Positions 36,031-63,940 of a stretch of 64,000 nucleotides of DNA are shown here, one piece after another. Source of the stretch: Sabellastarte sp. h YS-2021 (Eukaryota; Annelida; Polychaeta; Sabellida; Sabellidae); assembly GCA_964017235.1 (NCBI GenBank), contig OZ024938.1, positions 7,679,454-7,743,453 of the forward strand, given 5' to 3'. The position numbers and the translations under genes are program-made. Under the pieces are notes generated by a model, which worked only from the letters and a program-made list of their open reading frames with translations, searched no databases and was not told where the DNA came from. Positions within the stretch are counted from its first letter, which is position 1. The number at the start of each line of letters is the position of its first letter.

Positions 36031-36187
36031 GTTGATAGTGTTTTAAACATCACATCATTGGGAAGCATTCAATTTGTGGATAAATGATATTTGTGTGTAA
36101 AACACACAAAATGGCAAACTGTTTTCTATGTGTTTAGTAACATATTTTTGTGATCATTCCTTAGATTATTTTGTTTTATTATTTCAG

Positions 36188-36294
36188 TTTAAAATTCTGC
36201 TACTTGTAACTTTCCACAAATGCCATGATTTATAAAGGAGTCTTGGTGGGATATTTGATATTTCTGGGCATGGATTTGTATTACAACATAGCAG
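36188..36294 (+). CDS. Gene 2 first coding exon (5' UTR end, start codon, signal peptide)
   Basis: Acceptor ttatttcag ends at 36187, so a 5' UTR exon lies upstream. ATG at 36225 is chosen because an in-frame TAA at 36207-36209 excludes longer starts. It reads MIYKGVLVGYLIFLGM and continues to DLYYNIA, a signal peptide. An upstream mini-ORF atg-cca-tga (36220-36228) overlaps the start. The donor is g/gtaaga at 36295, phase 1. Confidence 0.68.
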
Positions 36295-39200
36295 GTAAGA
36301 TATTGCTGAGGGCAATATCAGGATTTGTGGCCCTGGGGTAGATCTGTAGCTATAGCTTAAGAGCCCTGGAGCAAGAGGCATATTATAGACTGGCATATGG
36401 GCAATAAATCATTACACCGCTCTCACACTCTCTCAAACATGTCACATAATTTGAAAATTACCCTAGTATCATATCGTTTTTAAGAATTTTCTAGAGTAAA
36501 GACTAAGAAAAAGTCTTATACAATCAGCTGCCTGTATTTGTGAGTGATAAAATTTTAAAATAAACTTCACAAGTATATACTTTCACTGCACTTGTTTATG
36601 ATAAATCAACTCCAAAGATATCCTCAGCCAATTGGACCAGCAGACAGGAAAGACTTTTTAGCTTGGAATTTTTAATCACTTCTACAACAAAAAGGAGCAA
36701 AAGCTCATTATTGTATGTCTAAACCTGTCAATAGATAAAATAATGTACTTCCGAAAATTCCAACCCCTTTCATATTTGGCATCAATTGCAATATTATAAA
36801 AATACTACCATGAATGTAGTTTTGCTTAAAGTATTTTAACTACTTACAACCAAAGTTCAAGTTGGGATTTTTACGGCCCGGGTCATATTAGGACAGGTCC
36901 TCAGCATTGCCACTTGTGGGAGGTCGAACCCACACAGGGGCTGACAGTCTATGATTAGATGCCAGACTTGCTAACTCACTAGGCCACTAAGGACCTCCAA
37001 CTACTTACGAGCATTAAATATGTAGAACATATCTTATTTCATTTTCAGAATAGTGGTCTGTAACAGGAGGTATATGATATTTTGTAATCAGAATTGCGTT
37101 TTTGGTTGATTAGTGATTATATATGTTTGAATATGCTTCATACTTATTGAAAAATCTGCACATGTTTGCTCATGTGTAAAGCTAATGGTCAACAGTAAAT
37201 ATAGTCAGGAAACAAAGGAAAATTCTTTGCTAGACATTACTTCTAGGGATAATAGTCAAATCAATAACATGGTGAATAATAAATTCTGTTAGAAGACTTA
37301 AACATATTTATTTGATGTTTATTTATATTTATGTATGTCATGACCAGTAATTTGCATCAGTTTAATTGTCACAGGTAGTTAGAGGGACAAAGGAGACCAG
37401 TACATGCAGCTGGTCAAGGTTCTGTACTGTAAACTGGCAGCCAATGACAAGCAGCTACCAGCTTTCCCACTTGAGGTCAGGCTGGGATTCAAACTCTGAC
37501 CTCAGAGGTGGGAGGCGAGTGTGTTACCACTGTGCCACCAGCACACCCTATCCTGAGATGCAATCTAATTATCTGATTAAAATTTCATTATCTTAATTAT
37601 ATAAAACACAGGCCTTTCCCGTAAGCCTTGAACCAGCAACAATAAAAAGTAAAAATTAAATTGTAAATTCTAACAAATCAGGACTAGTGAAAAAAAACAG
37701 ATACCCTTGTAAACTCTATTTTAATTGGGGGTTTTTGCTGATTTTTGACCATTTGAAAAGCATTGTTAAATGTCAGATGGCTAACTTTATGTAATGAATA
37801 TTCAGATATATTGAAATGAACCCTTGTGCACACAAAACTAGTACAATGTACAATTGAGTGTTCTTTCTGTACATAATTACCTTACCAAGCTGCATGAAGT
37901 AGAGCTTGGGGCTTTACATCAGGTTCATCAGACAGGGTCCTATTGGGACAGGCCCTCAGCCTTGTCGCTTGTGGGAGTCAACCCCACACAGAGGTGATGG
38001 CGTGTGATCAGATGTCTAACTGTGCCGCTAGGCCTTTAAAGATCTCTGCCAAGCTTTATAAATAGAAAGATATTTTTCTTTGAAATATAAATTGAAAGTA
38101 TATTTTAAGATGATGTTGTTTTTTTAAAGGTGCAGATTATGTGGAAGTTGAAATTCAATCGCTGGTCAGTGATGATGATGTAAACGGTCAAGAAGGATAC
38201 ATTAAACTTAATCAAATAGCCCTAGCTTACAAGAGCTCAGATGTGGAGAGTCACCTTGGTAGGACTTTTATTTATTTGTTAATTTTAATCTGTGAAATCT
38301 TATTAGTTCACTCTGAGGCCTGTGAGCCTCTTTAATAATGTTTCACACTTTTTCAAGAGTCACTGTGACTTATTGTGAAATTACATTAGCCCGGAGGAGG
38401 TTGTAATACCTATTTTTGAGACGTACAAATTATCATTGTCACTTTTCATTCTTCTCTCTACAAGTCAGTCTAACACTTTGGAAATAGTTTCAATGCTCCC
38501 AAGATTTGGAATGACCTTCCCGACAATGTATGCAATGGACCATCTATTGCCTCCTTTTGGGAAAAGCTCAAAATCTTCCTGTTTGCAAAAGCCTATCCCC
38601 CCATAGCCAGGTCTACCTCTGTGTGTTCTGGGTACCACCTGGCTATGTTCAATGGACCTATGACTATTCAATTACATTTGGAGTTTTACTAAGATATAAA
38701 ACTGTTAAATATACACATATTAATCTAACATTAGTTAATATTTAATTACTAACATCAAAGCACAATGTAGTTCAAACTTCAATCGTTCATTGCCCTGTAG
38801 CAAAGTGTATTATTTTTAAAATTAAGAACCATATTGTACCCTTAAGCAAATTTAGCAGAGCTACTACTTTTAGTACGTGTCTAAACGTGTTACTCTTAAA
38901 GCAGTCCTTTGTTACTATTCCAGTAATATATACAATAACAAAATTAGCAGAGCTACTACCCACAGTACGTCTATATCCGTGTTTCTCTATCAGTAGTCTT
39001 GTGCTACTATGCTACTATGTACAAGAGGGACATAGAATTGTTATAAATTTAAATTCGTGAGTACCTACTGCCCTGGATTGAATAAGAGAATCTAATACTT
39101 TACCAGGGTCAATGAAAAGTCAAAGTGCATGACCTAACCAAGGTGAGGAGAATAAAATGAAGATATAAGGTCACTCCTTAGGAGCATAGGCACATAGTGA

Positions 39201-42200
39201 AATTATCAATTTCGTTATTACTTGGGAGGGGGGGGGGGGGGAAGCTCTCATGTGCCCAGCACCATGAACTCCGCAACATTGATTCTTAGCCTGCATATGG
39301 TTTATATAATTAATTTTAAAAATATAAACTAACTATAAAATAACCCTGTTGACGTATATTTGATTTGTTTATATGGACACAAGACTGTCAGAAAACTTCA
39401 CGAATGATATGTAACGTTGTACAATATAATGAGTACTTTTATATAGTACTTAATCTCCATCAAGTCTACTTGGTACTAGAGCCATTAGGGAGAGTTAAAA
39501 ATCAGAATTCAGAGACATAGTAGCAGCATTAAAAATATTATGAATGAGATTACTATATTAGACTTTTGTTACACATATTCGTTTTTTGGCTACCTACTTG
39601 TTTTTTTTCGGGGGGGGGGGGGGGGGGGGTACAGACACCAGCAGAAGATATTCCTTTCCCTCGACTAAATGTGCAGGACTTGTCATTGCAGACAAATAAG
39701 GAGGTTCAACTTTAAGACTGGTTCGTAGAGGACTTAAATTTTGTAAAGATGACTTAAATATGGGCGCTATAAACTTTTCTCCATTTCAAAATTTGAAATG
39801 GCTGTAAATAAAGTATAATTATACAGAACACCTCACTAAAGCAGTCTTTGGAAGTTTATATGTGGTAACAAGGTTTTCCATTTAAAAACAGCACTTTTCC
39901 TTAGATAAAATGCATTAAATGAAGAATATATGTCACCAATAGTATAGTTTGAATAGAAAGGAAAGGTCACATGACACAGAAAACAACTGTGGTTATTTGA
40001 TAATCTTGGACTTAGCTAAGTCACCCTTTGTGAATACAGTTTTAAGACAAAACTGAGACAAAAGTCTTAACTTTAAGACTAGATTTAAGCCTAAGACCTG
40101 GCTTAGTCTAAGACCTTTCGTGAATACGGGCCCAGGTCATCCTTGGGTAGGACAGAGGAAGGGGTAGACCCTAAATTCTGTGAAAATATCACTTCAATCT
40201 GGTGCATTGCTTTTGAGTTAAGAGTACGGACAAAAAAACAAACAATAACCTGGCTCCTCCCATAAAGGAGGGCAATTGTAAACCTGTTTGTTTCTAATAG
40301 GGGACAGGATTTGATGACTGTTTTAACCTAATGTAAGATTCAACCAAATGTTTCCTATTTCCAGGTGTGCAAGTCATATTTCTGGACAATCATGCATGTA
40401 GAGTCCTAAATGAAACATTTATAACAACTACAAATCAGACTCTATGTCAGAACATGATTGACAGCATCGTGGATTCCTTGCCAGAAGATTTTATTTTGCT
40501 GCTGTCAACCATTGAGAGGTCAAAACTCTCAAAAACCTGTGTGGTGTTATTAATGGAAACATTGCTTAATAAAACAAAGCTTAACCATGGTTGCTCTGGA
40601 TTACAAGATTCCAGGTAATCAAATATCAATTTCACAAAACTACTTGTCAGAGATTTATAGTAATATATTAATAAATATTATTTTAATGCTTTTTTTGCAG
40701 ATTGCATAATTACATAATTTATCAATATATTTATACAGCGCCACGGTAGTGCAGTGGCAAGACACTTGCCTCCCACCCCCTGAGGTTTAAACCCCAGACC
40801 CTATGTGGGAAAGTTGTTAGTTGCTTACCTATGGTCGGCAGTTTACAGTACAGAACCCTCACCAAGTGTATGTACTGGTTTCCTCTGCCCATAAAACTAC
40901 CTGTCATTATATGACATGTACACTGTTGAAAGCAACATTAAAAGCCAAATAAATGCACACTCCTATGTAATAATCGATTTAAGGAACCTTGTCTTTTTTA
41001 CAATAAGTACCTCTAAAGAGCATTATGGCTTTGTAAAAGCTTGTTCTATCAACAACTTGTTTTGTATCACCCGACTTATTTATCAAATTTGGACTTATTT
41101 TGTGTCACTGACTTGTTTAGTGGTATAAGTACTTGTCGCAATATAAACAACAACAAACCAATCTTGTATAAACACTTACTCAGCTTTGCGAGAAATCTTG
41201 TTGGTACATGCTATGAATTTAAGAATGTGAAAAGCAAAGCTACCTCGTACACCATGCGGTTTCATAACATTACAATACAAAATATGTGCCTAACAGGTAG
41301 CACACTTATCTAGGAACTCAGAGGACGTGGGTTCAAACCAAGGTACAGGCAGATACATAGTGGCTCAGATGACCACTTAAAATGGCGGTCCTCTGTCATT
41401 GGGTTCTATCCCTGGTGGCAGGCTAAAGAACCTCAAGGACATTGATAAATGGTCATCCTTGAGCCTCTATCTTCCAGTTAGTGGAATGGCAGTTACTTGT
41501 GAGTTGGGACTGTACCTGTACAGTCACATGGGTTTAATAGTGCTTTGAGTCCTGTAGTATATGGAGACATTGCTCTGAGTATAAATACACAATACAATAC
41601 AAAAAAAATAAATCGATGATACAAACAAGTTGTCTGTAGAACAGTTTATTTTGTATTGTCAACCTGTTTCGTATCACCCCAAATCTGGTCCAAATGTTGT
41701 GCACCATTTTGTAACATAATAAGTCAACTGCTGACTTGAAATAAGTCTGACAAGTACCTGAAAATACAGAAGTTGGTGATAGAAAATAACTTGAAATTTG
41801 ATAAAAAAATAAGTTGACTGATACAAAGCAATTTGTTGATACAAAACAAGTGTACAGAACACACAAGTGTGCTACGAATATTGTCGAAATATGTGAGCGT
41901 AGCCTAGTAGTAGGTTAGTACAGATTTGCACTTCCCAACAAGAGTGGCCCTACTTGAATATCCAAGAACAGACCGTGACTAGCTACAGGCCTCACAATGG
42001 GTTTATGTACACGCAAGGTACACATAAGCATCTATAACACTATCATGGAAACACATGTGCCCAAGGCATGCACTTGTGGCTAAAGTCTCTTATAAATAAC
42101 CCTCGAGACATGGATGCCTGTTTAGCCATACTTTAATTTGCCAATTTTAATTGTGGGGTCTCTGTGACCTAGACAATCTGTTATAAAATTGCACGTGTCA

Positions 42201-45200
42201 CCTTAAACCTCTCTTACATCCCATCGTACGTGCACATACGTCCTGGTTACAGAGAAAAATCGGCTGATTTGCAAGGGACCCTCAAGGTACACTTGCGATT
42301 TTATAACAGAATTTCAAGGTTGCACAGACTCCACAATGGAAATTGACATGCACATTTTCTCTGTGTGCATGCAGTATGGCTATAAACGCATCCATGTCTC
42401 AAGGGTAACTTACGAGAGACTTGGGCACGTGCATTCTCCTTGCAAATGTTGTAGGTTCTCCCCATTTACTTACATTGTTTGCATGTGCTGTAAGATACAC
42501 TCACGTGTACCTTGCATGTATATAAACCTACTGTGCAACCTGTAGCTAGTCGCAGACTGTTCTTTGATCTTCAAGTTGTGATACTCTTGTTGTTAGAATA
42601 CACCTTGTTTGCACGTACAAATCTCTACTACCCCATTACCAGGCTACGTTCATATTTTTCAACAATATTTGCAGCACACTTACGTGTGTATGTACAATGG
42701 GATGTAAGAGAAGCTTTAGTGTCCCTTGCAAGTTAGCCCTATTTTCCCCATAACCGGGATATGCGTGCGAGTACAATGGGATGTTAGAGAGGCCTCACCA
42801 ATGCTTCCCACCATAACTTTGTACAACAATAAAACAAACACCTTTGCCTGTTCACAGTGTAGTTAGGTGGATTTCTTTTTATGCATACATGAATTTGGAC
42901 AAGTGCATGTTATAAATGTGTATTACTAACTTAAATTCAAAACATTAAGCCTTACAGAATCATTTTTATTGGTGACAATATAATGTCTACTGGAAACCAA
43001 CTTGACCCTCGCTGACCCAACTTGGCACGCGCTGCATACAGAAATTGCCTAAGATATTTCATTCATTTCTGTCATCGCTTTCTGTTTTTTCCATTTTTGG
43101 CAAATATTCGAAAATTCAAAATGGCCGCCATTTTTGGGGAGAGGAAATTTTTTTTTCAAAATTGCCAATAATACATTGATTACATACCCTGTGGGTCGAA
43201 AATTTCGACGAAAAAAAAACAAAAAAAAAAAACAAAAAAAATCTGCTTCAACTTCCTTTTAGTGATGACAATGAAATGTAAATAAAAAAGTCCAAGTTCC
43301 GGTTTTTGCAAAGTTAAGGTTGCTTCCATGATAGGATGCCAAGCAGGTTGATCTGTTGGACCACAAAACTTAAAGTATTGCAAAATGTAAAGTGTGTGTG
43401 CAAAGTGTAAAATGGGGAATAAAACTCATCCATATTACCATAAAAGTGCACCTCCACATAAATTGAGCTATGCTAGAAGAATAAAAAGTCATTTTCACAA
43501 AACAAATCATAACTTTAAACTGCAGTTGAAAAAATACTATTATATAGCTGTATTGCCGTAGGCTTTTACTTGTAATAACACCCCCTTTTTGCGATTTACG
43601 ATAATTAATGAATTTTTTTATTCAGTCATAATTATGATTCTTTGTAATCAGTGTGTTTAAACGTAGGCTGGTGAAGTGTTGAGAGAACCATTATTTCATG
43701 AGAAGCCTCTCCCAGTGTAATTTTGTTATATTTTTTCATATTTTTAGCTCAATGTGTGCAAAACTGAATGTCCTTCAACAGTTAAATAATCGTAGTTGAA
43801 TAATCAAAGTGCCTGTACTTTAAAGGCTAGTTTGAGTTCAGTTATATAGCAGCATACTCTTACTTTATTTATTTTATTTTATTTGGGGTTTTACGTCGCT
43901 TTCAACACTGTACAGGTCATATCACAACGGGTAGTTGGAGGGGCAGAGGAAACCAGTACATACAGTTCATTAGGGTTCTGTACTGTAAACTGCCAACCAA
44001 CGGCAAGCAACTACCAGCTTTCCCACTTGAGGCCGTGCCGGGAATCAAACCCCGGCCTCAGAGGTGGGAGGCGAGAGTGTTACCACTCTGCCACCATGGC
44101 CCCTCTTACTCTTACATTTTGTGAACTCCAACAGTTGATGACATTTTTAACTTTAGAGTTTAACTCCTCATTTTACACTTTGCAATTAATTTTACATTTT
44201 GTAACACTTTACATATTGCAAAAGGCCACTGTGCATGTAGTAGTAACATGCTTTCCTCCCACCTCTGAAGATCAGAGTTCGAATCCTGGCCCGAAATCAA
44301 GTATGAAACCTAGTAGTTGCTTACCATCGATTGGCAGATTTACAGTATAGAACCTTGACCATAAAACTTCCTGTCGTAATATGGCCCATACCATGTGTTG
44401 AAAACGATGTTAAAACCTAAATAAATAAATAAATTCACAACTCTACATTCCCCTTTGCAGCACTTTATGTTTTGCAGCTTTACGTTTTGTAACCCCACTT
44501 TACATTTTGTACAACTTACGTTTTGTGGTCCAACAGCTGTTCAGCAAAACAATGGTAAACGTATATTTCATTACGACTTCTTGTTTTCACATGTTTTTGC
44601 TTGTGTTCCAGTAAGGCTGTATCGATCATTGCTACAACAGAGAATGGGACCCTTTGTAAAGTTAAAGAAACACAATCTTATTTAAGATACAACATCACAA
44701 TTCCAGGTATAGTATTTATTTCTTTATACCCCATTTACAGTACAGGTGGTGGTATCCCCGTGGTAGTCCACATTTCGTAAAACTCCCCCGTCCTTTAACC
44801 ATCATCCGAGGTTCATAATGCCACCTTGTGACAAAATGGCGAAACATCCATTACCTTACACGGCCTATGGAAGTTTTAAAATGTTTAAAATTTCCGCCTC
44901 TGAATTTGGTACATGTGCAGATGAATCCAAGCATGTGCATTTTGTATTGTGTATTTATACTCAGCGCAATATCTCCATATACTACAGGACTCAAAGCGCT
45001 ATTTAACCAATCCCACTGTACAGGTACAGTCCCAACTCACACATAACTGACATTCCCCTAACTGGAAGATAGAGGCTCAAGGATGACCATTTATCAACGT
45101 CCTTGAGGTTCTTTAACCTGCCACTGGGGATAGGACCCAATGACAGAGGACTGCCATTTTAAGTGGTCATCCGAGCCACTATGTATCTGCCTGTACCTGG

Positions 45201-51200: not shown

Positions 51201-54200
51201 CATACTGTGTATAGGCCTCCCAATGTTTCCAAAGCCAATTTCATTGAGGATTTCAGTTCCTTTGTCGAAGGTGCTGCCTTATCATGTTGTGAAAATGTAA
51301 TATTAGGTGATTTAAATCTACACCTGGATAAACAGGACGGTTGGTCGCAGAAATTCAATGATTCCCTCTGCCAATATAATTTCACCCAAATTATTGATTC
51401 CCCAACACACATTCATGGCCATATATTAGATGTCATATGTGTGAGGGACACCTTTTCAAAGGCACTCTGCGCTAAGGTTATAGCTGGGTTATCTGACCAT
51501 TTTGCCATCACTTTTTCGGTCAATATACCTATTGAGGTTCCCTGCAAATTTAGACAAGTTAATACCCGGAAAATTCACAAGATAAACATCATGGATTTTA
51601 AAGAGGACATCCTGAATTCTGATCTAATCAAGCATCCTCACAGAACAGCCAGTTTGCTCAGTCACCAATATTTCAACACCTTGCGCAGCATTCTAGACAA
51701 GCATGCCCCAATAAAGAGGAAAATGGCTCCAGTGCACCCCGACAAAGGCTTTGTGAATTCAGACATCCTCTCAGCAAAGTGTCTGAAGCGCAAGTGTGAG
51801 CGAGTATGGCGCAGTAACAACTCTGCAATCAACCGGAGAAGATATCGAGCTGCTGTCAATCGCTACAATTTTCTACTGGAACAATCAAGACGCAGGCACT
51901 ATTCCACTGTCATTGCTGAAAATAATGGTAACCCCAAGGCTCTGTGGAACACTTTCAAGAAAATCTTGCACAAAACCTCAACTATCATCCTACCCGATCA
52001 TATTAGTCCTACTGATTTAGCTAACACTTTCGGTCATTTTTTCAGTGACAAAATTGTGAAAATCAGAGTTGCTTTAGAGTCATCAGTGCCTGTTTCCCTC
52101 ACAATACCGAAGAGTAATAGCAGTGCCCTGACCTCTTTTGAGCCTGTATCTGAGGATGACATCCTCAAAATCCTAAGGTCATCCAACACCAAATCATCCG
52201 ACCTGGACCCAATCCCTACCGCACTAGTCAAAGAGTGTGCGGACATTTTGGTCACTCCAATCACCAATATTATAAACTATTCACTCAAAGAAGGGAGTTT
52301 CCCAAACTGTTTCAAAACAGCATATGTCACCCCTCTTCTCAAGAAACCAAACTTAGACAGAAATCTCCTAAAAAACTATAGACCGGTATCCAACCTTAGT
52401 TTCTTGTCCAAACTGATCGAAAAAGTAGTTGCCAAACAGTTAAATAATTATATCGATAGCGAGGGGCTCTTCAATGTCAACCAATCCGCTTACAGGAGAC
52501 TCCATTCCACAGAAACAGCGCTGTTGAAAATCCAGAATGACATTGCTGCTTCGTTGGACTCTGGTAAGGCTGTTGCACTCACACTGCTAGACCTCTCAGC
52601 GGCATTCGACACTATCGACCATGACATTCTTTTTAATTCCCTAAGAGATTGGTTTGGGGTTGATGGCACTGTGTTGAGGTGGATCAGATCCTATCTCTCA
52701 AACCGGAAACAGAAGGTTAAATTAGGAAATAGCTTTTCAGATGTGTTCTCACTTCCGTATGGTGTGCCTCAGGGTTCTGTCCTGGGCCCCCTCCTTTTTA
52801 CCCTTTACACAACCCCTCTCAGTAATATCATTTCCAATTTCAATGTCACCCACCATCTATATGCTGATGACACCCAAATATATCTAGCATTGGACAATAG
52901 GAATTTTGATTCCAGTTTCGCTGAGCTTACAGAGTGTCTCACATGTATCCAAAACTGGATGGCTGGCGTGAAATTGAAACTCAATCCCGAGAAAACTGAA
53001 TTTATTATAATAGGTGATAGACAAGCCAGAGAGTCCCTCATAAATAAATTCCCTACTCAACTTCTCGGAAATTCTATTTCCCCTACTGATACAGTCAAGA
53101 ACCTGGGTGTAATTTTTGACTCTGGAAACACCTTTTCCAACCACATAACTAATATGTGTCGAGCCTGCTACTACCACCTTAAGGACCTAAGACGTATCCG
53201 TAAATTCCTCAGTGTGGAAACTGCAGCCTTGCTTGCAAACTCAATGATCAGTAGTCGACTTGACTACTGCAATTCCCTACTTTATGGCATCAGTAAGTAC
53301 AATGTTGCTAAACTCCAAAAGATACAAAATGCCCTTTGTAGAATTGTTTTTAGACTTGATAGAACTAGCCATGTCACTCCTTTTCTTCAAAAACTACACT
53401 GGCTTCCTATCACTTACCGTATATTGTTTAAGTACAATCTAATTACTTTCAAGGCTATAAATTTCTCTCAACCCATATACCTATCATCCTTGATCAAAAC
53501 CAGTTGTCTAACACGTGGAAATCGTCTTTCTCTTTCCTCAGCCTCTCACAAAAAGGCCATCGGTAGGAGAGGTTTTGTAGTGGCTTCCCCCATAGAATGG
53601 AACAGACTCCCACAATCAGTACGATCACAACAAACAATAACAGGTTTCCGTAGCCAGCTAAAGACCTACTTGTTTAGATTAGCATATCCTCCACCATAGT
53701 ACATCTCCCTGGCGGGCGCTAACCTTGGATCATGACCTCGAACGTCCCTCGACTTTCCCTTTTTGATTTCAAGCGCATTAGAGGATGTTGCATCAATTTT
53801 GCGCTATATAAATGTTTCTATTCTATGTGTTACCAGACAGAAGAATATGGGAAATGGTTGACAATTCAATATGATGTTAATTTACAGGCACACTTTAGAC
53901 ATGCAGCACATAAGCTATGGCCAGTCGACCTTAGCCCCTTTGTGAAAATGCTAAGTCTAAGACCACAGACTTAGCCTAAGTTGAAGACAAATATCTTAAC
54001 TTTCACTGCAGGCTTGGTTCCTTTGTGAAACCATTCCCAGGTGGATCTATGTGATAGTGAGATTTTCTATAAACCCTTGTATCTTGACAACGGGATTACT
54101 GCTTTTATATATATATATGATTATGTGTCGGTATGTGTCATTATGTGTTACATACAAATTCGGATGTCAGAAGCTGCGTCACATTTGACAGAGAGAGGAT

Positions 54201-57200: not shown

Positions 57201-60200
57201 ACACAAAATAGTTGTTTTAATTACTGACTTACCAACGTATCCTCTGTATTTGTACAGTTACAACCACCAAGAAAGGTATTTATTTATTTATTTGGGGTTT
57301 TACGTCGCTTTCAACACTGTACAGGTCATATCACGATGGGTAGTTGGAAGGGAAGAGGAACCAGTACATACAGTTTGTCAGGGTTCTGTACTGTAAACTG
57401 CCAGCCAACGGCAAGCAACTACCAGCTTTCCCACTTGAGACCGTGCTGGGAACCAAACCCCGGCCTCAGATGTGGGAGGCGAGAGTGTTACCACTCTGCC
57501 ACCGTGCCCCCCCCCCCCAAGAAAGGTATTATTTTGGCAATGTATCTTTGTGTGTCGGTTTGCAAAATGCTTGTAAAACCTATGGACATACAATGATGAA
57601 ATTTTCAGAAAATGTCGACAATGGAGTAAAACACAGGTAGTTTTGGTGGTTATCCAGATTATTGTCTCAATCTAAGAATTTTTATCGTTCCACTCATGAG
57701 AAATGTTGGAGGTATTGGCTTTGCTTATTTACGTTCGTACGTTTAAACTTCTTCCCCAGTAGGGGAATGTTGCATTTTAAACAAAGTTAACAAAAATTAA
57801 ATACACTTTTTTCATGTAGTGCCAGTTGTGGATGAAAGAGATTGTGAAGAGAGAACTACGGTGGGTGAATTGACCAAGTGGGGTGAATGGTCCACCTGCA
57901 GTGAGACTTGTGGCGAGGGATTTCAGACAAGAATAAAGACTTGCTTTGGCTGGCGACAAGGCAGTAGTCGCCTAGTGTGCTACGGGTCTGTGACCGATAC
58001 AACAAAGTGTAAAAAAGGCCCGTGTCCAGGTAATGAAATAAGTCAGAATTGTGGTGAGGTAAAATGTTCTATAGTTGATATTTTGTTGTGTAGATATTGC
58101 CATACTCTGCCAAACTTTCTTTAGACTCAAGTAACAGAAGAGTTTGGAGGAGGGACAATAGGGGGGATAAACCATCATTCATTATTTCATAATGATAGGT
58201 TCACACCTTTCATTACACTGGTTTCTATGTTTTTCTTTTATGCTTGTCCTCATAGTTGCAAAAAGAGACCCGCATCTCTAGGTAGTATAGTGAAGTGAAG
58301 TATGAGATGCCCTGAATATCCATCCACAACCCCTCTTCACTACCCCCCTCCCCCATGCATAGCCCTGCACAGCTTCCAGGTTTATCAAACATTAAATAAA
58401 AGGAAAGCAAAACATTTTCCAAATTTTCAAATGGCAACATCCTACAGCCATCACACCCGAATGCAAATCCCAACAAAGATACTGTTCCAAAATACAAAAC
58501 AGAGGAAGCACCAACAAAAAATGCATGAGCCCATTCTGTAGTATGGAAAGGGCTCCAGTTAGGAAAGTGTGACATCCCTTAAATGACGATGACAATCCCA
58601 CTTATTAAATTAGTGGAATGGTATGAGTGACAAAAGTGGTGGGATGACATGAAGTCATCAACAAAAGTAATAGCCAGGGCAGTAGCAGCCAGACAGTAGA
58701 AGCAGTGACTAGCAGCCACCCCAAAAATAATTCCAAAAAAGCAGTTGCTCTTCACAGGTGGTTGCTCATGGCAGCTTCAATTATGAAGGCTATGAGACAA
58801 AGTATGTGTAGGTTTATTGTTGTTGTCATGTAAGTCACTTATGTAAGTAACCATTTTTTAATGTTCACTGTAAACAAATTGAATTTATTTGTATCACTAT
58901 TTGTATCATCTCTCTGTTCAGGAGTCTGTCCAGTTTTAACATCCGCAAACTGCAGTGTATTCAAAACACACTCGGTAGGATTGTCAGAAACTGTAATAGA
59001 TACTCACAGGCATCTTCTATTCACAAATACCTCCAATGGTTGCCATTTGAATTTCATTGTATTTTCAAGACTGCCACTTTGGTTTATGTGTTTCTTCGCA
59101 GTGGTTATCCAAGCTATTTCGGTCCTCTTTTGTTTTTCATTGTGGAAGATATGACATAATATATAACCATTCAGACAAAAGGTTCCTGGATGTTCCTCAG
59201 TATTGCTCATCTGCACACAAATCCAAAAACACTTTGGTCACAGTTTTGTTTTTTGATGCTCACACAGTTTGTAATGATTTACCTGATAATGATAATCATT
59301 CTGCCCCAATTCTTGCTTGTCTCAGAAAAAAAGCTAAAATCTTATCTCTTCGATAAGGCTTTTCCACCTTAGCATCTAAACTATCCGGCATCTCTGTTGT
59401 ATCAACCTGCCTATGTCTATGGAATTACAATTACTGAATTGGACCTGTTGTTGCACCTTAGACTCTACCTTGACAGAGATTATGCGCTATAAAAGTACAG
59501 AAAAGAATAGAATAACTGCATTTCAAAAGTGAAAGCAGGATTATCATTTAAACAAGAGAGGCTGTAATTCACTTTGATAGCTTTAGATTAACTGGTTGGT
59601 TACAGGCGTTATTAACATAAACGAGGTGGAAGCATTTGTCAGTTTTAAAGATCTAATTGTCATAAAAGTAAGACCAAATAATTGGTGTGATCGATCTTCA
59701 CAGGTTCGGGGTTCTCCTTGGATTTAAAAAGGTAATTGCTGGTTGCAGGTAGCAGATGGCTGATCTTTGCGGGTTATGATTAATGTAGAAAGTCACTCGC
59801 TTTTCGAAAGTGGTTACTTTCCCCAGGGTCTTTGGAGGTAGTTGCCTGAGAAGGCTTGACTGAACAACAAAATGCATGACACTGATGACACTCCCATGTC
59901 ACAGTTTTAATATTTTTTGTGGCAATGAAAAATAGGAAATCCTCTTGGCTAAAACATATCCTCACTGAATGAAGCTGTCAGACCATATGTGGGAATCTAC
60001 ACTGATCAGTTTATAACCAAATTGCCTTGTAGACACTACCCTAGGCATCCTCTCACAGAAAACACAAAGAATTCTGAGAATTTATCAGAATATTTTATAA
60101 TTGTTACATTACTGTGTATCTATTGATCGCATATTTATATAAATAACAATATAAGTGTGTTTCTCCCAGTATTAAAATGTACTTGTGATGTCATACTATC

Positions 60201-63200
60201 GTTAAAAGTGTCGATTATGTTTAAGAATCTACACTTTTCTGTAGATTATTTTAACCCAAACTGTGGATTCTTAAAAAGAAACCACACTTGGATTTCATGG
60301 CCAAGTAATTACCTCAGCCAAGTAATTACCTCAGCCAGTGCTATATAACATAATATATAACAGTAACCATGCTGAACAATTTGTTATTTTGTAATACAAT
60401 TTTTTTATAATTTAGTGACTCTTTTGGATTTCCATAGAATATATTGTACAATCTAGACATAATAAATTAACATAATGGTTATCACTCAGCACATCCTTAA
60501 CTGGTTTATGTGTTATGGTAATTCATATTAAACAATAATATTGAAAGGAATAATTAAATTAACCTTATTGCATTTTTCTATGCAAAATTATTATTTAAAA
60601 AGTTAACTTCCTGGTCACAATTCATAATATATTAGTTAAATGTTCCTGGTTAAATACATATATAGTTAAACATATATTAATAAACGTATGTATATATTAA
60701 GTTAGAGACTGGTGGCCTCAAGCTTTCAAATAAAAAAATCCACACTTTTTCGGGCATTCTCCATAACAGCATTTTTGTATTTTGTAAATGTTTGAAAGGA
60801 AGCGTTTGACAAAGGTTAAAAATGATGGGTACTTATTTATTTGGGGTTTTACGTTGCTTTCAACACTGTACAGGTCATATCACAACAGGTAGTTGGAAGG
60901 GCAGAGGAAACCAGTACATACAGTTCGTCAGGCTTCTGTACTGTAAACTGCCGACCAACAGTAAGCAACTACCAGCTTTCCCACTTGAGGGCGTGCCGGG
61001 AACCAAAACCTGGCCTCAGAGGTGGGAGGCGAGAGTGTTACCACTCTGCCACCATGGCCCCTATACTGGTTCAAAGTTACGATTTATTTATTTGGGGTTT
61101 TACGTCATTTTCAACACTGTACAGGTCATATCACGACGGGTAGTTGGAACGGCAGAGGAAACCAGTACATTCAGTTCGTTAGGGTTCTGTACTGTAAACT
61201 GCCGACCAACGGCAAGCAACTACCAGCTTTCCCACTTGAGGCCGCGTCGGGGATCGAACCCCGGTCTCAGAGGTGGGAGGCGAGAGTGTTACCACTCTGC
61301 CACCGTGGCCCCTTCAAAGTTACGAATCACTTTTATTATTTCAAAATTATTATTGGTTTTCATATTTGCTATATAGCATCTAAAATTGTTGTTCTGCAAC
61401 AGAAAAAAAAATACATTTTACATTGTACTTTCTAACAATGACTTTTATCTACAGTATCAAAAATAGTGTAGGGTTTTTAACCACAATTAAACGGGAGAAG
61501 CATATTTTGCTGGGAAATTGAAAAGTATCAAGAGTACAAAATGAAACACCAAGCAATTGTTATTTCTCTAACTTTTTACATTTTACACATCAGTGAAATA
61601 TGTAGCTCTATTATCTTTGAAATTCTGGAGTCCCAAACTTTATAATTGCACAAGTTATACTTTAAACCAGTGACCCCACACCCTGGGTGTATCACATTAT
61701 CAATTCAGTGTACCAGTACATCTAGCCTTGTCCATGGGCAGTACCAGAGCCTCTTGCCCATTGCATGAAAACACAAAAACTAGGTCTTTGACCTCAGACC
61801 TTAGCTCATAGGCTTTGGTTATAACTAAGTAAAATGTAACTAACTTTATACTTTTTCTTCTTTTGGAATCAAATTGTGGCCTGATGCCTGCTGATCACTA
61901 CAGTGTTGATCCCTTTTTAAAACTAAGCATGTTTTGATCAGGTCAGACAGTTTTTAAAAAGTCTAATTAAATAATTACATGTTTATTTTAGTCACACTTA
62001 CTTGTAGCATTCAATTTGCTGTATGCATATAGAGGGCCACGGTGGCACAGTGGTAACACACTCGCCTCCCACCTCTGAGGTCTGTGGTTCAAACCCTAGA
62101 TCCTATGTGGGAAATTTAGTAGTTGCTTAGGGATGGTTGGCAGTTTACTGTACAGAGCCTTGACCAACTGTATGTACTGGGTTCCTCTGTCCAGAAAACT
62201 ACCCATCGTGATGTTATCTAAAAAGTGTTAAAAGCGAGGTTAAAACCCAAATAAACAAATATATGCATATCATTGATATTTCATAATTGGAAAATATCTC
62301 AGAGCCTATAACAAGACTACCCCAAACCAAAAGGTATACAATACTATATCTACATGATCCCTTGAGTTAATCATTTGATCAGTTAAAAAAGACATATTTG
62401 GCCCCACTGTTGCTGAAAGGTGTACTTCATAATGGGTTCATATTAAAAATTTCTTAGTGAATGAGCATGCTTGTAAAATGATTTCATTGGTAATTCATAA
62501 ATAGGTCAGCGTACTACCCTGGGTAGAAATGTGCACTAGCGGATCCAGGGGGGGGGGGTTCAGGGGGTTCGAAACCCTTGAAAAATAATGTAAAGGGGTT
62601 CAACCCAAAGTACAAAATTATTTCTTGACAGTGGTGTTAAATTTACAGGAAATGCACTCTATTTTTACCAAAATTAATTTTTTTCCAGGGGGGCATGCCC
62701 CCCGACCCCCTTAGTTATAATATGTCTGATGTGAACCCCCACCTTACTCAATGTGAATCCCCACCTTACTCGATGTGAACCCCCACCTTACATAAAAGCT
62801 GGATCCGCTTCTGAATAGATACACAGTAATGTAACAATTGTAAAATAGTGACACTGTAAAAACTCTACTTGGAAACATTTAGTAACCCGAAAGGTAGGGT
62901 TTAAATAGGCCTTAAAAACATTTTTTGTAAATGTTTAAACCATTTAAAATGTCTTTAATGTTTACTTGCCTTGTATAGTATACAGTAAACTATTTTATGA
63001 TATAATGTTTTCAAAGCGTTTTATCTATAACCTTTAAAAATGTTTAATGACAAATATTTTAACATTACAATAATGCTTTGGCATTGCTTAGGAATATTAA
63101 CCTTAATTAGGGTTAGAGGTCAAATTCAATATCATTCAGTATCTTCAATATATTTTTGTTCACTACAGTAATGAAACTTTTAGTTTTATGTCTAAAATAG

Positions 63201-63399
63201 TAAGATGTTTTTTCTCCTTAATGAAAATTTTATTTCATGTCTAAGTTGTAAGATTGTGGCTTATAAATTGTGCCCCCATTCAATAATTACTTTTAGGGAT
63301 TGTATGTGGTCAATTTTTTTTTCAGTCCCCAAGACTCCCCCACCCAAGACATTAACACCAGCAAATGAGGATACAGTAATTTATTTAAAATATATATAA
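36188..63399 (+). CDS. Gene 2: predicted secreted glycoprotein with thrombospondin type-1 repeats, ~355 aa
   Basis: Coding exons: 36225-36294, 38130-38258, 40365-40614, 44612-44706, 48279-48383, 57820-58029, 60170-60304 (less sure) and 63326-63399. All junction phases agree (1,1,2,1,1,1,1) and one frame runs to TAA. Residues 1-23 are a hydrophobic signal sequence. Residues ~24-182 form an unrecognised extracellular region with five Cys. Residues 183-216 are a degenerate TSR (WTAWSTC; the CSxTCG part is lost). Residues 218-286 hold a canonical TSR: WGEWSTCSETCGEGF then R, with six cysteines, a WxxW C-mannosylation motif and a CSxTCG O-fucosylation motif. A proline/threonine-rich tail ends the protein. 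Eight N-X-S/T sequons spread over exons 3-5 and 7 support a secreted glycoprotein. TSR proteins act in adhesion, axon guidance and matrix, but I recognise no specific orthologue. Introns hold many mobile elements. Confidence 0.75.
36850..36998 (-). mobile_element. SINE-B copy, reverse
   Basis: gttgggatttttacggcccg is the reversed tail, and ggtcgaacccaca plus ctcactaggccactaagga the reversed B-box and head. Located in intron 1 of the coding part of gene 2. Confidence 0.7.
37371..37549 (-). mobile_element. SINE-A copy, reverse, tail missing
   Basis: gtagttagagggacaaagga, gttctgtactgtaaactg and the head gattcaaactctgacctcag plus taccactgtgccacc. Confidence 0.78.
37908..38042 (-). repeat. SINE-B copy, reverse, decayed
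   Basis: ggggctttacatcaggttc, gggacaggccctcagcctt and gtgccgctaggcctttaaag follow the order of SINE-B. It ends 87 bp before exon 2 of gene 2. Confidence 0.6.
38130..38258 (+). CDS. Gene 2 coding exon 2
   Basis: Acceptor ttttttaaag ends at 38129 and donor gtagga starts at 38259 (weaker). Phase 1-1, 129 bp. It reads ADYVEVEIQSLVSDDDVNG and onward to SSDVESHL: acidic, no Cys, no domain recognised. Confidence 0.68.
38465..38700 (+). pseudogene. L2-like LINE 3' fragment
   Basis: NSFNAPKIWNDLPDNVC, then FWEKLKIFLFAKAYPP, is the C-terminal end of the LINE protein; it is followed by gtacctggc..tatgttcaatg 3' UTR-like sequence. Confidence 0.75.
38848..39010. repeat. Direct repeat with 93-bp period
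   Basis: ttagcagagctactac starts at 38851 and again at 38944. Flanking phrases agtacgt, gtgtt(a/t)ctct and cagt(c/a)..ttgt(t/g)actat repeat too. Two diverged tandem copies. Confidence 0.65.
39228..39241. repeat. Poly-G run of 14
   Basis: Uninterrupted G14 in an intron of gene 2; preceded by gggagg. The exact length may be an assembly approximation. Confidence 0.9.
39610..39629. repeat. Poly-G run of 20
   Basis: tttttttttc followed by G20. It is long enough to form G-quadruplex structures on the + strand and is prone to length error. Confidence 0.9.
40005..40140. mobile_element. MITE family K, partial copy
   Basis: Ends in ggcttagtctaagaccttt followed by cgtgaatacgggccc, the same terminal word as 7780-8018. 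The left part (cttagctaagtcaccctttg plus tgaataca) is the inverted counterpart. Confidence 0.6.
40365..40614 (+). CDS. Gene 2 coding exon 3
   Basis: Acceptor ctatttccag ends at 40364 and donor gtaatc starts at 40615. It is 250 bp, phase 1 to 2. It contains VQVIFLDNHACRVLNETF, three sequons (NET, NQT, NKT), four Cys and two amphipathic helices (MIDSIVDSLPEDFILLL). The translated frame is open across the whole exon and stops right after the donor, as expected of a real exon. Confidence 0.75.
40738..40954 (+). mobile_element. SINE-A copy
   Basis: The head gccacggtagtgcagtggca has a degenerate B box (ggtttaaacccc). The body is complete and the tail decayed to gcaacattaaaagccaaata. Confidence 0.8.
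41040..41850. mobile_element. Foldback-type element L with ~95-bp inverted repeats, carrying a nested SINE-C
   Basis: The left arm 41040-41138 (acttgttttgtatcac, cgacttatttatcaaattt, agtacttgtc) mirrors the right arm 41749-41850 (gacaagtacc, aaatttgataaaaaaataag, gatacaaaacaag). The interior is AT-rich without transposase and is interrupted by a SINE-C. Several open frames here are by-products. Confidence 0.7.
41288..41600 (+). mobile_element. SINE-C, nested inside element L
   Basis: The head ctaacaggtagcacacttat carries the B box gggttcaaacc, and the body ggtcatccttgagcctctat. The 3' end gacattgctctgagtataaa plus tacacaatacaatacaaaaaaa keeps the tail intact. Confidence 0.8.
41855..42800. 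mobile_element. MITE family F: two head-to-head copies with compound inverted ends
   Basis: 41855-42120 is a partial reverse copy and 42205-42717 a forward copy (cctctcttacatcccatc ... gggatgtaagagaagc). After it, 42718-42800 repeats the left end in reverse (tcccttgcaagttagc ... gggatgttagagaggc), giving a second, longer inverted pair of ~70 bp around the whole forward copy. No coding capacity. Confidence 0.6.
42801..43864. other. Non-coding intron sequence
   Basis: No exon found. Contains low-complexity A-rich tract at 43207-43240 (gaaaaaaaaacaaaaaaaa) and words aaaatggccgccattttt near 43120. Confidence 0.4.
43865..44103 (-). mobile_element. SINE-A, full length, reverse
   Basis: Starts with (ttta)n tail, ggggttttacgtcgctttca, ends with the head taccactctgccaccatggc plus ccc. 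It is very close to the 15811-16040 copy. The 155-codon open frame 43883-44350 is SINE-derived. Lies ~500 bp upstream of exon 4. Confidence 0.85.
44222..44436 (+). mobile_element. SINE-A, diverged
   Basis: Head aggccactgtgcatgtagta, B box agagttcgaatcc, body ggtagttgc-like, tail gttaaaacctaaataaataaa. Opposite orientation to its neighbour at 43865-44103. Confidence 0.78.
44612..44706 (+). CDS. Gene 2 coding exon 4
   Basis: Acceptor gtgttccag ends at 44611 and donor gtatag starts at 44707 (weak). It is 95 bp, phase 2 to 1. Only this frame is open (KAVSIIATTENGTLCKV, then YNITIP), with two sequons and one Cys. Both neighbours demand exactly these phases, which raises confidence. Confidence 0.62.
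44726..45577 (+). mobile_element. Family D non-autonomous DNA element, interrupted by SINE-C
   Basis: The left end ataccccatttacagtacag plus gtggt and the right end accacctgcagtgtgaatgc plus ggtat are inverted copies of each other (~30 bp). It begins 20 bp after the donor of gene 2 exon 4. Without the SINE at 44948-45265 the element would be ~530 bp. No transposase. Confidence 0.62.
44948..45265 (-). mobile_element. SINE-C, nested in family D element
   Basis: gtatttatactcagcgcaat (3' end) through gctaggccacagtggcagat (head). Nearly the same sequence as 27880-28200 and 54830-55142. Confidence 0.82.
45586..46060 (+). repeat. Interspersed repeat family M
   Basis: cctccacaaggatattatgg, gggtgcaatttatctgtctg and ctttctggttgatattactc, with the end gtggttatctcctgcc; parallel to 30345-30760. 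Confidence 0.55.
46370..46862. repeat. Unclassified interspersed repeat (family N)
   Basis: gaggtcaaaggtcaaagtca, ccctatggagcaatcaca, then gcaaatttgatgaagatagc and gcaaatttggtggagatatc, ending in ttcggcggctggacggagat. These are stereotyped phrases of a dispersed family, but no second copy is in the window. Confidence 0.4.
46863..48278. other. Non-coding intron sequence before exon 5 of gene 2
   Basis: No additional exon or known repeat seen. Open frames 46865-47083 and 47717-47956 lack domains. Confidence 0.4.
48279..48383 (+). CDS. Gene 2 coding exon 5 (degenerate TSR)
   Basis: Acceptor gacactag ends at 48278 and consensus donor gtaagt starts at 48384. Phase 1-1, 105 bp. PGECSSLNDSWTAWSTCTW then YNYGDKQVRYR keeps the WxxWSxC start and the Arg layer of a TSR but not the CSxTCG motif or the C-terminal cysteines. 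Confidence 0.72.
48600..48892 (+). pseudogene. L2-like LINE 3' fragment
   Basis: FTFGASTIWNELSDGIS and, in another frame, YRQKLKSHFFSKAFHSF are the C-terminal signature. The tail is aaaatataaaactctagaat(aaaatagaa). Confidence 0.65.
48893..49506. mobile_element. Insertion with hairpin, flanked by duplicated LINE tail
   Basis: A perfect 34-bp copy of the LINE tail (aatgcaaaatataaaactct...) is at 48856-48889 and again at 49473-49506, bracketing ~580 bp. Just inside is ggaataaaagac, mirrored by gtcttttattcc at 49019-49030. A strong stem lies at 48929-48974 (attaaagc / agccc-gaa-gggct / gctttaat). The class is unknown. Confidence 0.5.
49640..49912 (+). repeat. Interspersed repeat family H
   Basis: tctaccaaggcatgtgtgg, gtaaatgggaaaatctagat, cagtgatccagatcactcta, gaagatcggatcagttgtat, ending cctcattggctgagataat. 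Confidence 0.65.
50085..50410 (-). pseudogene. L2-like LINE 3' fragment, reverse
   Basis: The reverse open frame 50408-50085 includes LSVSLTRSNKCMGMLSFAVA, GPTKWNMLL and FRQQLKTYLFTLSYSPS, the C-terminus of an L2-like polyprotein. It lies head-to-head with, and only ~150 bp from, the long LINE that follows. Confidence 0.8.
50562..53830 (+). mobile_element. L2/CR1-type non-LTR retrotransposon, near-complete coding part
   Basis: A ~3.1-kb open frame plus ~130 bp of 3' UTR ending tttgcgctatataaatg and (ttctat)n. That end is shared with the truncated LINE tails at 11140-11708 and 58920-59512. The 5' limit is uncertain: the frame is open from 50562 (TAG at 50559-50561). I found no target-site duplication. 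It lies in the intron between exons 5 and 6 of gene 2, in the sense orientation. Confidence 0.85.
50601..53699 (+). CDS. LINE polyprotein: APE endonuclease + reverse transcriptase, ~1032 aa
   Basis: Residues count from the TTG at 50601. Residues 70-89 carry a hydrophobic stretch and the 2A-like motif GDVSINPGP (82-89). Residues ~98-305 are an apurinic-type endonuclease: INIRS (N100), VTETWL (E127), LGDLNLH (D237, N239) and GLSDHF (D299, H300). Residues ~500-790 are a reverse transcriptase: LLDLSAAFDTID (Asp 664), YGVPQGSVLGP (721-), LYADDTQIY (YADD at 754-757). The C-terminal domain has LQKLHWLPITYR and ends FRSQLKTYLFRLAYPPP. The catalytic residues are intact and there is no internal stop. 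No in-frame ATG exists before codon 331; an ATG at 50569 is in another frame, so the N-terminus has a frameshift or uses an unusual start. It would copy its own RNA by target-primed reverse transcription. Confidence 0.92.
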   Translation: MLVARATNTTTDNPSTTPIPVASSLPFSFPTYSTIYFASGIHPCLNGVNYAFLAIQGHIRRVTHSYKHVSPWVSILLILSGDVSINPGPNTSLLTGSLINIRSIRNKSVALAEFINSNKSDIIAVTETWLRPDDTDSFIASVTPPGYKCTHVPRQQGRGGGVGFFIRDDIDFKVLPQPCFNTFESISVHLSTGNAQDIVFHTVYRPPNVSKANFIEDFSSFVEGAALSCCENVILGDLNLHLDKQDGWSQKFNDSLCQYNFTQIIDSPTHIHGHILDVICVRDTFSKALCAKVIAGLSDHFAITFSVNIPIEVPCKFRQVNTRKIHKINIMDFKEDILNSDLIKHPHRTASLLSHQYFNTLRSILDKHAPIKRKMAPVHPDKGFVNSDILSAKCLKRKCERVWRSNNSAINRRRYRAAVNRYNFLLEQSRRRHYSTVIAENNGNPKALWNTFKKILHKTSTIILPDHISPTDLANTFGHFFSDKIVKIRVALESSVPVSLTIPKSNSSALTSFEPVSEDDILKILRSSNTKSSDLDPIPTALVKECADILVTPITNIINYSLKEGSFPNCFKTAYVTPLLKKPNLDRNLLKNYRPVSNLSFLSKLIEKVVAKQLNNYIDSEGLFNVNQSAYRRLHSTETALLKIQNDIAASLDSGKAVALTLLDLSAAFDTIDHDILFNSLRDWFGVDGTVLRWIRSYLSNRKQKVKLGNSFSDVFSLPYGVPQGSVLGPLLFTLYTTPLSNIISNFNVTHHLYADDTQIYLALDNRNFDSSFAELTECLTCIQNWMAGVKLKLNPEKTEFIIIGDRQARESLINKFPTQLLGNSISPTDTVKNLGVIFDSGNTFSNHITNMCRACYYHLKDLRRIRKFLSVETAALLANSMISSRLDYCNSLLYGISKYNVAKLQKIQNALCRIVFRLDRTSHVTPFLQKLHWLPITYRILFKYNLITFKAINFSQPIYLSSLIKTSCLTRGNRLSLSSASHKKAIGRRGFVVASPIEWNRLPQSVRSQQTITGFRSQLKTYLFRLAYPPP
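53915..54045. repeat. MITE K-related remnant
   Basis: cccctttgtgaaaatgctaa, gtctaagaccacagacttag, ggttcctttgtgaaaccatt is the same alternation of 'tttgtgaa' and 'ctaagac' as in the K group. Confidence 0.45.
54046..54655. other. Non-coding intron sequence
   Basis: No exon, SINE or LINE seen; (at)n tract near 54105. Confidence 0.4.
54660..54782 (-). repeat. SINE-C, truncated (3' half only)
   Basis: tgtatttatactcagcgcaa to ctgacattcccctaac, then the sequence breaks off. Same orientation as the next copy. Confidence 0.75.
54830..55142 (-). mobile_element. SINE-C copy
   Basis: Complete body and head (gctaggccacagtggcagat) with an expanded (tta)n tract at its 3' end (54812-54850). The LINE remnant starts directly at its head. 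Confidence 0.82.
55141..56265 (-). pseudogene. L2-like LINE, internally deleted, reverse
   Basis: Reading the reverse strand from 56265 down gives the reverse-transcriptase N-terminal block (DEEIRKIITN, DILLPSITNKLVNCFLSE, LFKKVIVTPQIKK, MKNYCHVS). A jump follows to KLKFIPDKNQVYHFW (after the YADD region), RRLRQHVIQEAALNAENALV, LKKLHWLHIQQ and the end SFRKKLKAYVSTKAY. The catalytic core between them is missing and there are several frameshifts. The element is dead. Confidence 0.75.
56575..57165. mobile_element. Family D element, rearranged, interrupted by 5S-SINE
   Basis: The left part (gtaatacagtggcgaact, tgtcaccgcataacactgaa) is the reverse of the 45300-45400 region. The right part (ggacattttgcctctgtg, acggtagttgaatgacaggg, ttgtagtgtgattggagtat) is forward. 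The 5S-derived SINE lies between them. Confidence 0.5.
56721..56945 (-). mobile_element. 5S-rRNA-derived SINE, reverse
   Basis: ggtagcccatcccagtatta is the reversed 5S C box. Also shared are aaaaggggttttggtcc, gatcagagacacgagtagtg and aattcatgaaagtatggaga, all in the same order as 31261-31590. Confidence 0.68.
57281..57516 (-). mobile_element. SINE-A, full length, reverse, with 14-bp target-site duplication
   Basis: Target ccaagaaaggtatt lies at 57267-57280 and 57517-57530. The tail (ttta)n is at the left and the head ends in a C run at the right. It sits 304 bp upstream of the TSR exon 57820-58029. The open frames 57336-57596 and 57344-57640 are SINE-derived. Confidence 0.88.
57820..58029 (+). 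CDS. Gene 2 coding exon 6 (canonical thrombospondin type-1 repeat)
   Basis: Acceptor tttttcatgtag ends at 57819 and donor gtaatg starts at 58030. Phase 1-1, 210 bp, encodes one whole TSR. The core is LTKWGEWSTCSETCGEG, then Arg-Ile-Lys-Thr-Cys, and four downstream residues LVC, TKC and GPC complete the disulphide set. A symmetrical phase-1 exon holding exactly one domain is typical of shuffled extracellular modules. Confidence 0.88.
58135..58919. other. Non-coding intron sequence
   Basis: No domain or repeat recognised. Open frames on both strands (58225-58575 reverse, 58302-58541) show no coding pattern I can support. Confidence 0.4.
58920..59512 (+). pseudogene. L2-like LINE 3' fragment with frameshifts
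   Basis: IRKLQCIQNTLGRIVRN, then SSIHKYLQWLPFEFHCIFK, TATLVYVFLRSGYPSYF and finally EKKLKSYLFDKAFPP in another frame. It ends tatgcgctataaaagtacag plus (aagaat)n, the family 3' terminus. Confidence 0.82.
59513..60169. other. Non-coding intron sequence
   Basis: Nothing recognised besides AT-rich sequence before the candidate exon 60170-60304. Confidence 0.4.
60170..60304 (+). CDS. Gene 2 possible coding exon 7
   Basis: Acceptor gtttctcccag ends at 60169 and donor aa/gtaatt at 60305. Phase 1-1, 135 bp. It reads LKCTCDVILSLKVSIM and ends NPNCGFLKRNHTWISWP, with three Cys and one sequon. The same frame is open through to 60348. It may be alternative or spurious: skipping it keeps the frame (310-residue product). 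Confidence 0.45.
60833..61062 (-). mobile_element. SINE-A, full length, reverse
   Basis: ttatttggggttttacgttgc to ccactctgccaccatggccc. First of two tandem copies in the same orientation, 20 bp apart. No clear target duplication. Confidence 0.85.
61083..61312 (-). mobile_element. SINE-A, full length, reverse, 13-bp target-site duplication
   Basis: Target ttcaaagttacga at 61070-61082 and 61313-61325. The B box (ggatcgaacccc in reverse) is well preserved. The 184- and 137-codon open frames covering this pair are SINE-derived, not proteins. Confidence 0.9.
61326..62031. other. Non-coding intron sequence
   Basis: No feature recognised. Confidence 0.4.
62032..62261 (+). mobile_element. SINE-A, diverged, with 9-bp flanking repeat
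   Basis: The head gggccacggtggcacagtgg has B box gtggttcaaaccc and tail gcgaggttaaaacccaaata. Flanks tatgcatat at 62022-62030 and 62262-62270 may be the target duplication. Confidence 0.8.
62538..62811. mobile_element. MITE with inverted ends agcggatccag and an internal 24-bp tandem repeat
   Basis: Ends agcggatccag (62538-62548) and ctggatccgct (62801-62811) are a perfect inverted pair. The left part is G-rich, ggggcatgccccccgacccc lies inside, and three units of gatgtgaacccccaccttac type lie at about 62727-62795. Confidence 0.7.
63326..63399 (+). CDS. Gene 2 terminal coding exon
   Basis: Strong acceptor aatttttttttcag ends at 63325. In phase 1 it reads PKTPPPKTLTPANEDT and stops at TAA 63397-63399. 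It is a short Pro/Thr-rich tail with no membrane segment. Other phases hit stops quickly. Confidence 0.6.
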
Positions 63400-63662
63400 A
63401 GTTAAATACATCTAACACTACTATATATGTACAAATCGAACTGTGTTACACATAAAATAAGGTTTTAATTAAAAGTCACATGATGCACCAATTACATAAC
63501 ACCATGTTACACAACCACAAAGACAAGCTTGGTTAAAATTAGAGTCCCGACAGAAAACTGTACAAGCTTGTCAACAATACGTAATGAGCTTCAACAACAC
63601 ATCATGTGACCCATAGCCATACAACCAGAGATGTGACCATTAATTACTTGAAAGTACGTAAG

Positions 63663-63809
63663 TATCACTTTACTCAATATTCATCACAATGTGATGTGAC
63701 AGTCAACCAAATACGACTTTACTCAACAAACATGACAATGTGATATGACAATCAACTCAGTATCACTTTACTCAATAAACCTCACAATGTGATGTGACAA
63801 ACAAGTATG
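63663..63809. repeat. Minisatellite, 3 x 49 bp
   Basis: Units start at 63663, 63712 and 63761 (tatcactttactcaat, tacgactttactcaac, tatcactttactcaat), each with cacaatgtgatgtgac-like middle. It lies in the 3' flank or 3' UTR of gene 2. Confidence 0.85.
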
Positions 63810-63934
63810 AATTTGATCAAGTACAAATTACTAAAAGGTTAAGGCCATCATAAGCCATCACTGAAGTAATAACACAATTAAAAACCTAAAAGTTACGTGT
63901 AAACAAAGTGTAAACTACCATAGGCATTGGATAA

Positions 63935-63940
63935 AATAAA
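63935..63940 (+). terminator. Possible polyadenylation signal of gene 2
   Basis: AATAAA, 536 bp after the stop codon at 63397-63399. It is the first exact hexamer I see downstream. If used, the minisatellite would be in the 3' UTR. Confidence 0.3.

Follow-up and report, generated by a model that had tools for sequence, protein, structure and literature searches.

The 64,000-nucleotide stretch analysed here (referred to as the window; C19:7679454-7743453 of a 1.786-Gb genome that its genes mark as that of an animal) is best explained as containing a gene, present in one copy, whose product is a secreted glycoprotein with a signal peptide, a highly diverged ILEI/FAM3 domain (residues ~24-182), a degenerate half thrombospondin type 1 repeat (TSR) and an intact TSR, a reading to which a probability of about 0.65 is assigned. 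On the best reading, the gene would represent an ILEI-TSR variant within a known class of secreted module proteins.

Analysis of the window yielded six credible exons, all located on the plus strand (Table 1). They exhibit AG/GT borders wherever they are spliced, and their phases (0>1, 1>1, 1>2, 2>1, 1>1 and 1>1 for exons 1-6) are compatible throughout, in agreement with the phase chaining originally described. The original prediction had counted eight exons and eight sequons. The chain could be rebuilt with seven exons, 310 residues and seven sequons, and this count includes a proposed last exon (63326-63399) that was subsequently rejected. A scan of positions 28000-38050 for hydrophobic exons that start with ATG and end at a phase-1 donor returned two candidates, of which exon 1 is the better. 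Comparison of the spliced protein with the whole 1.79-Gb genome revealed no close second copy of exons 2-6, each of which had itself as its sole close match, and a whole-genome search identified exons 1 and 4 together with their borders as single-match DNA. A candidate paralogue of exon 3 (C18:39634223, E = 4.2) was discarded, as its translation was judged by eye to be unrelated. The gene is presumably expressed, and the proposal of a secreted, N-glycosylated TSR protein is supported.

Two further coding features were observed in the window. Intron 5 contains a complete LINE open reading frame (ORF; 50562-53699, plus strand) of 1045 amino acids with endonuclease and reverse transcriptase, in which the endonuclease is preceded by the sequence GDVSINPGP, which we take to be a 2A-like motif. 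Far upstream, an exon that encodes a strong signal peptide, MKFVLVFAVLCAATLLEAKP, and ends at a phase-1 donor (4261-4321, plus strand) is followed by a charged exon APDKERLLQELLDTLETDDKK (~6366-6427, plus strand), and the two could possibly form the start of another small secreted-protein gene.

Table 1. Exons of the ILEI-TSR gene model and repeats located downstream of it (window coordinates).
Feature	Position	Strand	Description
Exon 1	36225-36294	+	ATG and signal peptide MIYKGVLVGYLIFLGMDLYYNIA; phase-1 donor CAG|GTAAGA
Exon 2	38130-38258	+	N-terminal strands of the ILEI-like domain (ADYVEVEIQ...ESHL)
Exon 3	40365-40614	+	Core of the ILEI-like domain (GVQVIFLDNHACRVLNETF...GLQDS)
Exon 4	44612-44706	+	Probably the final strands of the ILEI-like domain (SKAVSIIATTENGTLC...YNITIP); phase-1 donor at domain end
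Exon 5	48279-48383	+	Apparent degenerate half TSR (SWTAWSTCTWYNYGDKQVRYR)
Exon 6	57820-58029	+	Intact TSR; contains the motifs WxxW and CSxTCG
Dispersed repeat	60165-60320		39 other places scored, 89-94%; outside the gene
Older dispersed repeat	63211-63322		25 other places, 82-89%; directly upstream of the retrotransposon end
DIRS-like retrotransposon end	63323-64000	-	Continues past the window, perhaps to ~69236

The short tail assigned to the protein proved to be an artefact of a retrotransposon terminus. From position 63323 onward, the DNA recurs at 12 other genomic places with 96-99% identity (and at two more with 69%), and this similarity begins exactly at window base 63323 in 11 of the 12 cases and at 63321 in the remaining one. 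Likewise, when the spliced protein was searched against the genome, its tail gave matches of 89-95% on other chromosomes. Four other copies that were read (L052, L053/L054, L055) share the same start, CAGTCCCC, and differ in the sequence upstream of it. Since the CAG acceptor of the proposed last exon corresponds to the first three bases of the transposon, and the exon thus lies inside a dispersed repeat and not in unique genic sequence, it was rejected. The similarity to two other copies is unbroken to 65200, where the copies compared end, and a further shared piece spans 68957-69236. Three minus-strand ORFs putatively encode gag, reverse transcriptase and tyrosine recombinase, and on this assignment the element is a DIRS-like retrotransposon. 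Copies of it were also observed in tandem, 1091-1092 bases apart, at four places on other contigs. The older repeat that abuts it may resemble its first bases, with five of its 25 copies aligning on to 63340-63341, ~18 bases beyond the boundary. An additional candidate exon with a sequon (60170-60304) was discarded, as it is covered by the dispersed repeat at 60165-60320. With the loss of the tail exon, the credible part of the gene reaches to 58029; candidate ends past exon 6 are a read-through stop codon at 58122-58124 and an AATAAA/ATTAAA signal at 58391.

The TSR identity of exon 6 is certain. The exon matches Pfam TSP_1 (PF00090) with 42 bits (E = 1.1e-10; gathering cut-off 21.6) and contains both of the motifs attributed to the protein, WxxW as WGEW and CSxTCG as CSETCGEG (CSETCG). 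It also matches other TSRs of the genome, at identities of ~40% or less. Exon 5 looks like a degenerate half TSR: it ranks second among 5373 ORFs (11.6 bits, E = 0.084) against a profile built from nine TSR sequences, one of which is the intact TSR of the window itself. When joined, exons 5 and 6 match TSP_1 with E = 3.7e-10 and show two additional Spondin-like TSP1 stretches under the cut-off of that family. The proposal of one half-lost and one intact TSR is supported. An intact repeat with WxxW, CSxTCG and six cysteines is shared with TSR proteins (PF00090) in general; unlike in these, only one intact and one half repeat were found in the present protein, and no other module of the TSR family was recognised. 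WxxW motifs undergo C-mannosylation and CSxTCG motifs (CxxS/TC) undergo O-fucosylation, and the exon 6 TSR would probably carry both modifications. Elsewhere in the genome, TSR exons occur in arrays, with at least 35 in a row at C18:69163402-69220737, mostly spaced by ~1141 bases and often identical in score, and seven at C2:138842728-138847247, ~728 bases apart. Such arrays would be either very large TSR genes amplified in recent times or duplicates produced by the assembly.

Relatives of the putative N-terminal domain were sought in the same genome. A search with the Pfam ILEI model returned six stretches, four of which exceeded the cut-off, among them a 257-residue frame (L012; 28.7 against a cut-off of 27) whose ILEI domain precedes a weak match to PAN (E 0.04). 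As a query, this frame yielded 30 matches, of which all except two lie on C20 (between 7.46 and 8.27 Mb) or on C8 (86.05-86.10 Mb), and a C20 member used in the same way yielded 33. Secreted ILEI genes thus occur in tandem clusters at C20:7.46-8.29 Mb and C8:86.05-86.10 Mb, which amounts to a large expansion of the FAM3-type domain. Twenty ILEI exon pieces from the two clusters were read, giving ten joined pairs; for four of these ten compared with Pfam, ILEI was the sole match, below its cut-off. Each of the ten C8/C20 second exons read closes the domain with a phase-1 G|GT, and the same holds for the window. Two of the genes, one on C8 and the other on C20, have a PAN exon downstream (PAN_1 17.8 bits, below the cut-off; PAN_3 21.5 bits, just above it), which is presumably spliced to the ILEI exons of these genes. 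No PAN-like ORF stands out within the window, and TSR matches on C2, C8 and C20 are situated megabases from the ILEI genes among the best 150 and 136 matches listed. The architecture had been noted as seemingly unusual, and for this genome the combination of ILEI and TSR does appear so: in the three relatives followed, a PAN or PAN-like module comes next, and as far as seen, ILEI with TSR is peculiar to the window's gene. The ILEI genes on C2, C8 and C20 share with it a signal-peptide-like start, the phase-1 domain end (in the ten C8/C20 second exons read), a further extracellular module and one cysteine. They differ from it in the PAN module found in the three followed in place of a TSR, in their clustered rather than single occurrence and in other internal intron positions.

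These relatives allowed the construction of a profile of 11 ILEI sequences, i.e., L012 and the ten C8/C20 exon pairs, the latter paired by nearness alone. Residues 24-182 score 26.9 over 140 columns against this profile in hhalign. None of 300 shuffled sequences scored as high (mean 12.3, standard deviation 2.5, maximum 21.9), and the reversed sequence reached 10.1. In hmmsearch, the region obtained 13.3 bits, a score surpassed by five of 20,000 shuffles. The profile row C20_7469 contains four out-of-frame junction letters; their removal changed the hhalign score to 26.7 and omission of the row raised it to 30.1, with program probabilities of 19.9% and 40.4%, respectively. In both reruns, none of 300 shuffles and none of 300 unrelated chains scored as high. 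As a control for exon choice, exon chains matching the gene model in shape, 3000 in all, were drawn at random from both strands of the window. A single chain exceeded the hmmsearch score (13.4), and this chain contained exons 2 and 3; its hhalign score was 27.15. Among 1000 chains sampled for hhalign, one, at 27.15, equalled or exceeded the window's score. Chains lacking the exon 2 and exon 3 cores numbered 2841; of the 1200 of these that were scored, none reached 26.9, the maximum being 21.35. Based on the 11-sequence profile, which places the region above both shuffles and unrelated chains, its description as new or unrecognised is probably wrong; residues 24-182 most likely form a very diverged ILEI/FAM3 domain of the POMGnT1-stem type. 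With the same profile, POMGnT1 scores 44.2 and FAM3B 37.0, and the window's domain, which scores lowest, is consequently the most distant of the three.

The hhalign signal stems from exon 2 (18.8) and exon 3 (14.8), which together score 26.8, and exon 4 adds 0.1. Ten of 14 alternatives for exon 4 score slightly above 44612-44706, and its ORF gained no support from a profile of the C-terminal part of ILEI (-1.7 bits). The exon was retained because of its single copy, the full domain length that it provides and its phase-1 end as in the C8/C20 relatives, and it presumably belongs to the gene. The sole other ORF of similar coverage, an alternative exon 4 ending at 41296 (three variants), was discarded as a dispersed repeat. 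Regarding structure, an AF2 model of exon 3 alone, obtained from the single sequence (pLDDT 62), shows the order strand-strand-short helix-long helix-strand-helix, as would be expected for the core of an ILEI domain; VIA-align of this model found no match among 40 PDB chains. The fold of ILEI/FAM3 domains is a three-layer beta-beta-alpha arrangement. One of the five cysteines in the window region aligns with a cysteine of the relatives, which is aligned in all eleven. With the ILEI/FAM3 proteins and the POMGnT1 stem (PF15711), the region shares its length, its apparent strand/helix order, a core in which GVQVIFLD is comparable to GIHVIVLN, and a secreted or lumenal setting; unlike them, it lies below Pfam detection, lacks the FDTY motif and is linked to a TSR.

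In the POMGnT1 stem, the residues that contact GlcNAc are given as R129, D179 and R207, and sugar binding is reported for FAM3A and FAM3C as well as for a FAM3-like domain from a nematode (PMC9802357). By spacing, these residues correspond to R31, D81 and R109 of a POMGnT1/FAM3 alignment (A1), in which all three are invariant. Among the eleven ILEI relatives, a counterpart is present in six for R129, in ten for D179 (the eleventh row has a letter from outside the exon's frame) and in all eleven for R207. Unlike the POMGnT1 stem, the window's domain does not appear to keep these residues: the joint alignment, which is uncertain at the last two positions, places L, a gap and K there, so that the sugar-binding residues would have been lost. 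Lectin activity of this kind is therefore unlikely and protein binding is the better guess. Five sequons are situated within the ILEI-like domain.

Two alternative explanations have to be considered. Residues 24-182 might constitute a genuinely new extracellular domain whose likeness to ILEI reflects a weak resemblance in the alternation of strands and helices. Consistent with this, Pfam ILEI (PF15711) did not match the spliced region, its gathering score not being reached. The sole Pfam model returned for the N-terminal part was KOW6_SPT5, below its cut-off (E 0.012 to 0.098). A phmmer search of the region against PDB returned nothing, and the window was not among the matches of the genome searches with Pfam ILEI, L012 or the C20 member. 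Identity to the seven other sequences of alignment A3 is 13-24%, the POMGnT1 motif residues are absent, and the probability that hhalign itself gives for the region is low (20.7%). Comparisons with smaller sets gave lower values still: 0.5%, in the same register, with four POMGnT1/FAM3 sequences and 1.75% with seven ILEI sequences (score 18.9 over just 47 columns; 0 of 100 shuffles as high), in a comparison that drew on FAM3B/FAM3C stretches and two joined exon pieces of a POMGnT1-like gene on C3. In a pattern scan of viral contigs, 52 matches were obtained and none was a relative. A new domain is nevertheless considered unlikely, as the collinear alignment over the full length is equalled by none of 300 shuffles and none of 1200 unrelated chains, and the domain end and its intron phase are the same as in the C8/C20 relatives.

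The chain might also join two neighboring genes, with exons 1-4 belonging to an ILEI-like gene and exons 5 and 6 to a TSR gene, as its 5' or its 3' part, a scenario that would fit the 9.4-kb intron with its complete LINE ORF between exons 5 and 6. It is the more doubtful of the two alternatives: a scan between 44706 and 57819 found no signal-peptide exon with a phase-1 donor, the phases chain throughout, and exon 5, which follows directly after exon 4, is itself TSR-like. A single gene with a diverged ILEI/FAM3 domain followed by one half and one intact TSR thus remains the preferred reading.

This single ILEI-TSR gene most likely originated in a family of ILEI module proteins that are secreted and specific to the lineage. 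The phase-1 introns would have allowed the C-terminal module to vary, giving PAN in the relatives that were followed and TSR here. A tentative scenario, held with somewhat less than even confidence, is that PAN was exchanged for TSR by phase-1 exon shuffling in the tandemly expanded family and that the sugar-binding residues were lost afterwards, resulting in a heavily N-glycosylated, protein-binding scaffold. Independently of this scenario, the protein would likely serve an extracellular binding or scaffold role, in which the TSR would contact glycosaminoglycan or matrix partners and the ILEI domain, apparently without its three sugar-binding residues and with its five sequons, would engage in protein contacts instead of GlcNAc binding.

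FAM3/ILEI proteins have been studied as secreted signals in mammals, where their mechanism is unclear. In the literature searched, which covered few of the subscription journals, no published description of an ILEI domain combined with a thrombospondin type 1 repeat was found. PMC9802357 places the origin of FAM3 early in the chordate lineage and describes FAM3-like domains of nematodes that are joined to a POMGnT1-like part. For genome annotation, the rejected tail illustrates that the end of a transposon can mimic a terminal exon. If the proposed scenario is true, the exchange of PAN for TSR would represent a new domain architecture for FAM3-type proteins. The clustered secreted ILEI genes and the diverged ILEI-TSR gene together suggest that sugar binding may be dispensable and that ILEI serves as a general extracellular module in the lineage of this animal.
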